Origin: an uncultured delta proteobacterium
Lineage (GTDB): Bacteria > Myxococcota_A > Polyangia > Haliangiales > Haliangiaceae
Reading direction: 5' to 3'
DNA length: 36,356 nucleotides
Assembly: GCA_900696455.1 (NCBI GenBank)
Contig: CAADGB010000366.1
Span: forward strand, 1-36,356
In this document: positions 20,091-23,050 of the stretch, piece by piece
Layout: each line of letters starts with the position of its first letter
Numbering within the stretch: position 1 is the first letter of the stretch
Program-made: the position numbers and the translations under genes
The notes under the pieces: model-generated
Seen by the model: only the letters and a program-made list of their open reading frames with translations
Told to the model about the DNA's origin: nothing
Database searches by the model: none

Positions 20091-22022
20091 TCATTGTGCC
20101 TCCAGCCGCACCTCGCCCCAGGGATCGTAGTAGGGCGGGGTGCCCTCGGCCAGGCGCAGCGCATCGCCGCCGATGAGCGGCACGTAGCCATCGACGATCA
20201 CCATCACGGTGTACGTGCCCGGCGTGGGCACGGGCTGGCGGAGGAAGACCTCGCCGCTCGCACCGGATCGTCCCCACGCGATCACGAGGTCGTCCAGCCG
20301 GTTGACGTCGACCTGGGCGGGGGTCACGCCGGGCCGCAGCACCATCAGGAGCGCGTTGGCCACCGGCTGGGAGTTGGCGGCGTCGACGACGCGGGTGGAG
20401 ATGCGGATCCCCTCGGCCTCGGCGTCGATCGCCGTGGGCTCGAGCTCGACCGACGTCCGGCCCAGGCGAGGCGTCCAGCCGGTGCGGACGATCGCGAGCA
20501 GGGCGCTGGCCGCCGCCAGCGGCCGCACCAGCCCGTCCCGGATCATGGTGCCGTCGGCGCCGATCCGTCGCCGCTCGGCGGTGGCGATGCCGACCAGCTC
20601 ACCGGCGTCGTCGATCACCGGCCCCCCGGAGTTGCCGTGCGACAGGGCGGCGTCGGTCTTGATGTAGTCCCGCCCCATCGTCCCGTCCTCGCTGGTGAAG
20701 CCCTCGACCAGGCCCTGCAGGATGCGCAGCGAGCCGCCGCCGACGTCGGGGTAGCCCAGGACCCACAGCCGCTGGCCCGGCGACAGCTCGCCGCGGGCGC
20801 CGATCAGCGCCGGCCACAGCGGTCCGCCCAGGCTCGGGCTCCACGGTCGACCGTCGAGATCCAGGTCGCACTTGATGAGCGCGAGGTCGAGCTCGGGCTG
20901 CAGCTTCGACGCTGCCGGCCGCCCGGCGCACACCAGGCGCGGCGGCTGGTCGATCGCGACGAAGCGGCCGATCACGAACACGTCGTGCAGGCGGTTGCCG
21001 GCGCCGAGGACGTGGTGGTTGGTGAGGATCGAGCCGTCGGCGCCGACCACCGCGCCCGAGCCGCCGCCGACCGCGCGCAGGCGCCCGTCGACGACGTCGG
21101 CGACCACGACCATCACGGTCGACGGGAAGTGGCGGGCCACCGACGGGGGGTACGAGGGCGACAGCCGGCTGGAGTGAGGCACCAGCGGCATGCCGGTGTG
21201 CGAGGCCACCCGCAGGCTCGGCGCGATCATCCGCTCCAGGCGCTCCACGCGGCGCGGCGGACCGTGGAGGGTGATGGCGTAGAGGCGCGTGCGGTCGACC
21301 GTGGCCAGCTCGACGGCGTGGGCGATGCGGGGCTCGTCGTCCTTCTCGGCCGCGTGGGCGTAGCGGAAGCCGGTGCGGAGCCAGTCGTGGCCGGCGATCG
21401 TGAGCACGCGGCTGGGATCGCCGCCGTACAGCTCGCCCCAGCGCGTGCGGCGGTCGAGCTCGAGCCCGGCGAGGATGTTGCGCCAGGTCGGCGCGTCCTC
21501 GATCCGGACCTCCATGCGGACCTCGGGGTCGAGGGTGGAGGTGTAGACCACGTGGTAGGGCAGCTCGCCCCCCGGCGGCCGCGGCGCCGGCGGCTCGGTC
21601 GCGATCAGCCGCGGCGACACCAGCGCGACCTCCTCGGGCGCGAGCCAGGTCGCGGGGCGGGTGAAGCGCAGGCCGCGGGTCTCGAAGACCTCGAGCGGCG
21701 GCTCGACCAGGCGGCGGTGGACGAAGCCGGCGGCGGCCACCACCGCGGCGGCCAGGGCGATCACGATGACGTCGTGGCGGTGATAGGGCGAGGCGGGGCC
21801 GAGGGCGTGCGCGACGTGGCGGGTGACGTCGGCCACCGCCGGTCCGATCGTCGTCGCCCGTCGCCAGGCGCGGCCGGCGAGGGTCTCGTCGTCGTCCTCG
21901 GCGGCCAGGGGCATCGAGCCGGCCGGATCGGGCTCGGCGGCCGCGTCGTCGGCGGCGGCCGCGGCGGGGGCGGTCTCGGCGTCGGCGGCCTCGGGACCGT
22001 CGGGGCCCTCGGGGCGGCTCAT
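20091..22022 (-). CDS. Membrane-anchored trypsin-like serine protease
   Basis: 643 residues. An acidic Ala/Pro-rich N-terminus (about 1-80) precedes one membrane segment (VIVIALAAAVVAAAGFV, about 84-100). An extracytoplasmic domain of about 180 residues (FETRGLRFTRPATWL onward) has no certain family and could be PsbP/LpqN-like. The chymotrypsin-fold domain has all three triad residues: His in SILTNHHVL, Asp in LDLALIKCD and Ser in GNSGGPVIDD. No PDZ domain follows. The last 100 residues look like a carboxypeptidase-regulatory-type beta-sandwich. ATG 22022 overlaps the stop of the PrsW-like gene as ATGA. A DegS-like envelope role is plausible but inferred. Confidence 0.85.
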   Translation of the reverse strand: MSRPEGPDGPEAADAETAPAAAAADDAAAEPDPAGSMPLAAEDDDETLAGRAWRRATTIGPAVADVTRHVAHALGPASPYHRHDVIVIALAAAVVAAAGFVHRRLVEPPLEVFETRGLRFTRPATWLAPEEVALVSPRLIATEPPAPRPPGGELPYHVVYTSTLDPEVRMEVRIEDAPTWRNILAGLELDRRTRWGELYGGDPSRVLTIAGHDWLRTGFRYAHAAEKDDEPRIAHAVELATVDRTRLYAITLHGPPRRVERLERMIAPSLRVASHTGMPLVPHSSRLSPSYPPSVARHFPSTVMVVVADVVDGRLRAVGGGSGAVVGADGSILTNHHVLGAGNRLHDVFVIGRFVAIDQPPRLVCAGRPAASKLQPELDLALIKCDLDLDGRPWSPSLGGPLWPALIGARGELSPGQRLWVLGYPDVGGGSLRILQGLVEGFTSEDGTMGRDYIKTDAALSHGNSGGPVIDDAGELVGIATAERRRIGADGTMIRDGLVRPLAAASALLAIVRTGWTPRLGRTSVELEPTAIDAEAEGIRISTRVVDAANSQPVANALLMVLRPGVTPAQVDVNRLDDLVIAWGRSGASGEVFLRQPVPTPGTYTVMVIVDGYVPLIGGDALRLAEGTPPYYDPWGEVRLEAQ

Positions 22023-23050
22023 CGCGCGCCCTCGCCGCCGCCGCGGTCGCTGGCGCCGTCGCCGACCGGGGCGTCGTCGACGTCCGGGTCGTCGTCGTCG
22101 TCGTCGTCGTCGTCGTCGTCGGAGCCCACGGCCTTGCCGGCCGCCGCCGCGACCTCGGGCTTGCGGAACGGCGACTCGGCCAGCAGCCGCTGCACCAGCA
22201 GCATCAGCACCGCGAACACCGCGACCGCGACCGCGGCGGCGTAGAGCACGCCGCGCCAGGCGTGGGTGCCGAAGCCGCTGGTGGTGACGCGCTGCTCGAC
22301 CAGCGCGAACTGGCCGTTGAGCACGGCGGCGCCCAGGAGGCCGAAGAACAGGAGCACGCCGCGCGACAGCGCGCGCCGGCGCGTGAACTTGGCCCGCCCC
22401 AGCACGTAGCCGAGCCAGCCGGCGAACGAGGCGTGGGCGGGCGTGGTGACGACGACCTGGGCGGCGCCCGTCGACAGGTAGACGCTGCCGCCCTGGCCCT
22501 GCAGCCGGTGGTAGTTGATCCACACCGCGAAGCCGGTGCCGACCGCCATCATGTAGACGACGCCGTCCATCGGCTCGTCGAACTCGGGCGAGGTGTAGAT
22601 CGTGTAGCGGACGGCGACGTACTTGCACAGCTCCTGGCCCAGCCCGACGACCAGGACGGCGTGGACGATGCGGTCGAGGGTGAAGGGGGTGAGGCCGTGC
22701 TGGGCGAACGGCACCGGCGGCGCGAGCTGGTAGATGACGAAGTCGGCGATGGGTGCCGCCACCAGCCCGCCGAGGAGGAAGACGCCGGCCACGAAGTGCA
22801 TGGGCTCGGGCTCGTGGCGATCCTGGAGATAGAAGAACGCGAGCCACAGGCTCGCGGGGACGCCGGCGACGACCAGCGCCAGCGCCGGCGACAGCCGCAC
22901 CGGCCCGTCGAGGCCGAGCAGGCGCTCGACCAGCCAGGCCAACCCGACGAACACGACCAGCCCGGCCACCAGCGCCAGCTTGGAGCCGACCAGGAGGCGC
23001 GCGCGGCGGAGGGACCAGCGCGGCAGCGCGCGGTTGGGCGGGGCGGGCAC
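22019..23050 (-). CDS. PrsW-like polytopic membrane protein, altered active site
   Basis: 343 residues with about eight membrane segments and PrsW-family layout. The characteristic regions are GLGQELCKYVAV (family motif EExxK), GVVYMMAVGTGFAVWINY (family motif FxxxE followed by N), and TTPAHASFAGWLGYVLG (conserved His). Characterised PrsW proteases use the Glu residues of the first two motifs; here the first Glu is Gln and the second motif's Glu is Ile, so proteolysis is doubtful. The C-terminus is a cytoplasmic tail with 11 consecutive Asp. The start is GTG 23050, 6 nt after a TACAAT -10 element and with no ribosome binding site, so the mRNA is probably leaderless. It is co-transcribed with the serine protease. 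Confidence 0.8.
   Translation of the reverse strand: MPAPPNRALPRWSLRRARLLVGSKLALVAGLVVFVGLAWLVERLLGLDGPVRLSPALALVVAGVPASLWLAFFYLQDRHEPEPMHFVAGVFLLGGLVAAPIADFVIYQLAPPVPFAQHGLTPFTLDRIVHAVLVVGLGQELCKYVAVRYTIYTSPEFDEPMDGVVYMMAVGTGFAVWINYHRLQGQGGSVYLSTGAAQVVVTTPAHASFAGWLGYVLGRAKFTRRRALSRGVLLFFGLLGAAVLNGQFALVEQRVTTSGFGTHAWRGVLYAAAVAVAVFAVLMLLVQRLLAESPFRKPEVAAAAGKAVGSDDDDDDDDDDDPDVDDAPVGDGASDRGGGEGAR
22088..22120 (-). repeat. GTC trinucleotide run (poly-Asp)
   Basis: Eleven GTC triplets in a row (GAC on the coding strand) encode 11 Asp near the C-terminus of the PrsW-like protein. Length variation would stay in frame. Confidence 0.85.

Follow-up and report, generated by a model that had tools for sequence, protein, structure and literature searches.

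Gene organization of the locus

The window, by which we mean the whole stretch of 36,356 nucleotides analysed here, carries on its reverse strand two overlapping genes, one for a PrsW-like membrane protein and one for a membrane-anchored trypsin-like protease. The features considered in this study are the following.

22019..23050, (-): degenerate PrsW-family membrane protein, 343 aa, GTG start; PF13367 79.8 bits against a cut-off of 23.5
22622..22636, (-): motif 1, QELCK (residues 139-143) in place of EExxK; Gln invariant in a 23-sequence alignment
22517..22519, (-): Ile178 at the Glu position of FxxxE (FAVWI), by alignment with relatives
22433..22435, (-): His206, retained; invariant in the 23-sequence alignment, often missing from more distant members of the cassette
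22019..22022, (-): ATGA overlap of the PrsW-like and protease genes
20091..22022, (-): membrane-anchored trypsin-like protease, 643 aa; Trypsin_2 E 2.2e-23; DegS fold match
21720..21776, (-): single membrane segment, residues 83-101, by hydropathy
21168..21710, (-): NDOM, approximately residues 105-285, extracytoplasmic, possibly PsbP/MOG1-like; encoded by its own gene in Chloroflexota and other Myxococcota
20586..21062, (-): trypsin-like domain, residues 321-479, triad H337, D379, S465
20094..20417, (-): C-terminal CarboxypepD_reg-like domain (CDOM), residues 536-643

The PrsW-like protein matches the PrsW-protease family of Pfam (PF13367, E 2.6e-22) and scores 86 bits against the PrsW equivalog model NF033739, below that model's cut-off of 225. 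Its predicted structure (pLDDT 79) consists of eight long helices. A search of PDB sequences with this protein returned acidic low-complexity matches only. Near its C-terminus is a run of 11 Asp residues encoded by a GAC repeat (window 22070-22125, (-)), which is not seen in the aligned orthologues.

An earlier sequence-only reading of this DNA had described the two genes and their 4-nt overlap; the coordinates, strands and overlap are right. Its account of the protease also stands: the triad H337-D379-S465 is intact and invariant in a 15-sequence alignment of orthologues, the only anchor is the N-terminal segment at residues 83-101, and Pfam returns no PDZ match at E ≤ 1 alongside a clear Trypsin_2 domain (84 bits against a cut-off of 27.6). 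The C-terminal domain that it had noted resembles CarboxypepD_reg, weakly in the window (E 0.032) and more clearly in relatives (E 2.4e-6 to 2.9e-4). Right in what it observed, this reading missed the NDOM between anchor and protease, an intact PrsW paralogue elsewhere in the genome, and the recurrence of the arrangement in Chloroflexota. The resemblance of NDOM to PsbP is weak, with a PF01789 match at E 0.11 in one member and PsbP as the top PDB profile match at E 0.12; the order of strands and helices in this part of the protease model is compatible with PsbP.

No sigma or anti-sigma gene was found among the genes adjoining the pair; the same reading had already reported the lack of a neighbouring anti-sigma factor. 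A divergent gene combining HTH_17 and PTS_EIIA_2 domains (window 23144-24010, (+)) adjoins the cassette and is conserved in 25 related Myxococcota loci; it could encode a regulator. Downstream are methyltransferase and poly(A)-polymerase/CCA-adding-type genes (window 17460-19804, (-)), whose synteny is often conserved.

The PrsW active site is degenerate

When aligned against intact relatives, the window protein retains E140, K143 and H206, and it has lost the first Glu of EExxK, which is Q139, and the Glu of FxxxE, which is I178. Both replacements had been proposed from the window alone, and both are borne out by the alignment. The aligned columns are clear against the intact PrsW rows, and a position of the catalytic Glu residues elsewhere in the protein was rejected on this ground. 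Nor did the motif table and tree reveal an orthologue with an intact site; all intact copies are paralogues or outgroups. One such paralogue is present in the same genome, where a separate PrsW (contig C538) keeps EExxK, FxxxE and His. In CPBP proteases mutation of the catalytic Glu abolishes activity (PMC7542359). Judged from these residues, the PrsW-like protein of the window is very probably inactive.

The replacement is shared by the relatives of the window. Strong orthologues (E < 1e-50) occur in 24 of 29 other genomes of the same family, with divergent ones in two more (G012 and G016); the named records are Kofleriaceae, Myxococcales and similar MAGs. The first Glu is absent from every Myxococcota (Kofleriaceae-type) orthologue, being Gln or, in the divergent G012, Tyr. 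At the motif-2 position most orthologues carry Ile, Val, Leu, Ala, Thr, Asp or Gln; Glu stands there in G010, G014 and G034 and, as the alignment shows, in G012. In same-family genomes a protease homologue usually adjoins the PrsW-like orthologue. Among related cassette loci, the window included, the PrsW stop is visible in 25, and 23 of these keep the RTGA overlap. The presence of the replacement in every orthologue and the synteny of the pair make the observation more than chance.

Against three relatives of the same genus, dN/dS of the PrsW-like gene lies at 0.15-0.17 and that of the NDOM-protease part at 0.23-0.29. Higher ratios, 0.34 with G006 and 0.56 with G009, come from more distant comparisons, in which dS has stopped increasing and appears saturated. 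The intact reading frame, the gene linkage and this purifying selection rule out chance or pseudogene decay. In one genus (g5; L049, L051-L054 and L057) the protease carries, before its membrane segment, a low-complexity tail of hundreds of residues with the conserved islands AALEAARIVSQMVDIDSESGAVIAAAAAAGAAIEA and TTVRLSRDRILRAL.

Loss of the active site goes with a downstream NDOM

To relate the state of the active site to gene context, we scored 118 PrsW rows at five motif positions and for downstream modules by profile search. Among degenerate rows, NDOM lies downstream in 50, the contig ends in 7 and no NDOM is found in 4; among intact rows the corresponding numbers are 0, 9 and 48. The rows are not independent, because they were taken from similarity searches and related genomes, and the 50-to-0 split is not to be read as 50 independent events.

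The four degenerate rows that lack an NDOM match are of different kinds. Two of them, L060 (G034) and L104 (Planctomycetota), have Gln for the first Glu, keep the other motif residues and have no cassette. In L070 (G016) NDOM is fused to the PrsW-like protein, as seen by eye and outside the profile count of 50. The last, L134_5412, was rejected as a degenerate PrsW, being an out-of-frame artefact.

In a tree of 94 rows, all 56 cassette rows and L060 fall on one side of a branch with 100/100 support, and the intact rows and L104 fall on the other. Catalytic loss thus seems to date from the base of the cassette clade or near it. Distant cassette members have lost both Glu residues of EExxK and often the His as well. 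The position of L060 indicates that the first-Glu change can exist without a cassette, through cassette loss or otherwise.

A three-module cassette in two phyla

The sequence-only reading had treated the locus as a two-gene pair; the conserved unit is instead made up of three modules, PrsW-like protein, NDOM and protease. In Chloroflexota (Caldilineaceae, Litorilinea and others) a related PrsW-like gene is followed by a gene for a single-span protein of about 215 aa and then by one for a secreted protease of the trypsin-like type, which ends in a CarboxypepD_reg-like domain; other Myxococcota families have the same gene order. Most Kofleriaceae have NDOM and protease fused in one protein, and the PrsW-like protein is fused to NDOM in G016, G075 and one G566 copy. 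That both junctions are bridged by fusions suggests a joint function of the three modules. In G566 (L193) two cassette copies stand in tandem, one of them with the fused PrsW-NDOM. Several PrsW-like proteins (L161-L163, L192, L195, L196, L199 and L201) carry an N-terminal, zinc-knuckle-like CxxC...CxxH motif.

The third module varies. Of 42 trypsin-type cassette rows, the window among them, 40 have the full triad; it is lost in G075 (D-N-S) and G173 (T-N-C), where the PrsW-like site is lost too (L160 and L161). At least two cassettes thus seem to be without proteolysis, which a pure role as protease holder does not explain. In one Chloroflexota lineage of 12 loci no trypsin-like gene was found, and in all three of these loci that we examined (L192, L199 and L201) the upstream gene encodes an M4 thermolysin-like peptidase. 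A CDOM profile built from the C-terminal domains of the window and L100 matches the C-terminal part of the M4 peptidase. In both loci tested a small Emfourin-like gene then follows, above the Pfam cut-off in L199 and below it in L196. Emfourins are inhibitors of M4 peptidases.

These comparisons cover 235 Myxococcota genomes (7 matches at E ≤ 1e-20), 301 Chloroflexota genomes (21 matches) and 199 Planctomycetota genomes (9 matches), with other phyla covered by one pattern-based scan; most of the genomes are MAGs. In the four Planctomycetota loci that we read, whose flanks are short, we saw no NDOM, and the EE pair is intact in three and has Gln in one (L104/L159).

Fold of the models and comparison with known systems

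The closest matches to the model of the PrsW-like protein are APH-1 (5a63_C; Z 16.4, rmsd 5.2, 211 aligned) and TMEM147 (7tm3_6; Z 15.8, rmsd 4.1, 210 aligned). The APH-1/TMEM147 group spans Z 14.6-16.4, rmsd 4.1-5.2 and 192-211 aligned residues, and the next unrelated chain scores Z 8.9. Foldseek ranks the same folds without any match at E < 0.001 (TMEM147 E 0.12, APH-1 E 0.52). An active PrsW should match APH-1 and TMEM147 equally, so that the fold match says nothing about activity. With the longer model, that of the protease protein, the matches were all taken up by the protease domain, which aligns with DegS over 185 residues (Z 17.7, rmsd 3.1).

Consideration of characterized systems places the cassette among several partial likenesses. 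PrsW of B. subtilis, the site-1 protease of RsiW (PMC4602095), shares with the window protein PF13367, the DRxEPEP and EPxDG motifs, the His and the Lys. The window protein differs in the replacement of the first EExxK Glu and the FxxxE Glu, in its score below the equivalog cut-off, in having no adjoining anti-sigma gene and in having fixed partner genes. The protease resembles DegS/HtrA (S1C) in its trypsin-like domain and fold, its one N-terminal anchor and its intact triad, but it has no PDZ, its protease domain is flanked by an additional domain on the N-terminal side and a CarboxypepD_reg-like one on the C-terminal side, and it is linked to a degenerate PrsW.

In Staphylococcus aureus the CAAX-protease homologue SpdC scaffolds SagB (PMC10581084); here, as in the arrangement we propose, a protease-homologue membrane protein scaffolds a membrane-associated hydrolase. 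SpdC is of the CAAX/CPBP type and not a PrsW, though its structural similarity to the PrsW-like model reaches Z 7.7. SagB is a glucosaminidase, and we know of no NDOM reported in the SpdC-SagB pair. By analogy, this pair is the nearest working precedent for a putative dead-PrsW scaffold.

APH-1 and TMEM147 each hold a single-span ectodomain partner (PMC7505659), and the predicted model of the PrsW-like protein shows a fold used elsewhere for that purpose. The likeness seen here to APH-1-nicastrin and TMEM147-nicalin is one of fold; those systems are eukaryotic, and TMEM147 has seven helices. Nicastrin and nicalin are aminopeptidase-like, and not PsbP-like or trypsin-like. Among the papers searched, none joined PrsW with a pseudoprotease and none gave an experiment on any cassette protein.

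Interpretation

We consider it probable that the PrsW-like protein is a catalytically dead scaffold that holds a secreted protease at the membrane, in the manner of SpdC-SagB and APH-1-nicastrin. It would be an inactive member of the PrsW/APH-1 superfamily turned membrane scaffold, made together with a single-span NDOM protein that it probably binds in the membrane. NDOM would tie in the secreted protease, by fusion in the window and from a separate gene elsewhere, and the complex would hold, orient or control the protease on the outer side of the inner membrane; CDOM may, as a guess, be a docking module. The sequence-only reading had suggested an inactive scaffold or a protease partner. The fixed loss of residues in a single clade, the constant linkage, the fusions and the purifying selection all favor that suggestion, and this support is comparative rather than biochemical. 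Weighing against it are the residues E140, K143 and H206 retained by the window protein, the two cassettes whose protease triad is gone as well, and L060 and L104, where Gln replaces the first Glu with no cassette present.

A non-proteolytic membrane function of the PrsW-like protein itself, such as insertion, transport or lipid handling, with the protease as client or quality-control partner, appears unlikely on balance. It would accommodate the two cassettes with lost triads and the exchange of protease type for M4 in one Chloroflexota lineage, and TMEM147, one of the two best fold matches, acts in membrane-protein biogenesis; yet on contigs of sufficient length almost every cassette comes with a protease-type protein, and nothing points to a transported substrate. 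We regard as improbable that the PrsW-like protein has remained proteolytic through Glu140, His206 and neighboring residues and cooperates with the serine protease in cutting one and the same membrane substrate, in the style of site-1 and site-2 cleavage. The retention of E140, K143 and H206 in the window and almost all close orthologues, together with the motif-2 Glu of G010, G014 and G034, would fit such an activity. However, no Myxococcota orthologue retains the first Glu, which is catalytic in related CPBP proteases (PMC7542359), and in other members of the cassette family nearly all of these residues have disappeared with gene order unchanged.

The sequence-only reading had also proposed a signalling cassette, and this part is not supported, there being no adjoining sigma or anti-sigma gene. 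Regulated intramembrane proteolysis controlling a sigma factor, as in PrsW/RsiW or DegS/RseP, is the least credible of the alternatives and in our estimate very improbable. DegS acts in a pathway similar to that of PrsW and RsiW. The action of PrsW on RsiW (PMC4602095), the N-terminal CxxC...CxxH of some PrsW-like proteins and the long N-terminal tails of some proteases lend it some appeal, but no sigma, anti-sigma or site-2 protease gene stands beside the window genes, none appeared in those loci of relatives that we inspected by eye, and the PDZ of the DegS type is absent. An anti-sigma substrate encoded at an unlinked site would escape this comparison of neighbors.

The scaffold reading can be extended, as a speculation that we hold with little confidence, to a bacterial counterpart of APH-1/nicastrin and TMEM147/nicalin, in which a dead PrsW fold would clamp a single-span ectodomain protein and the two together would capture secreted enzymes of any catalytic type through a shared C-terminal domain.

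Cases in which a dead intramembrane protease serves as a scaffold are known from eukaryotes and from one staphylococcal pair. A cassette shared by two distant phyla, in which the catalytic decay of PrsW accompanies a secreted protease, would provide a bacterial system for the question of how a protease fold becomes a scaffold. Furthermore, annotations of "PrsW protease" in Myxococcota and Chloroflexota often mark proteins without the active-site residues.
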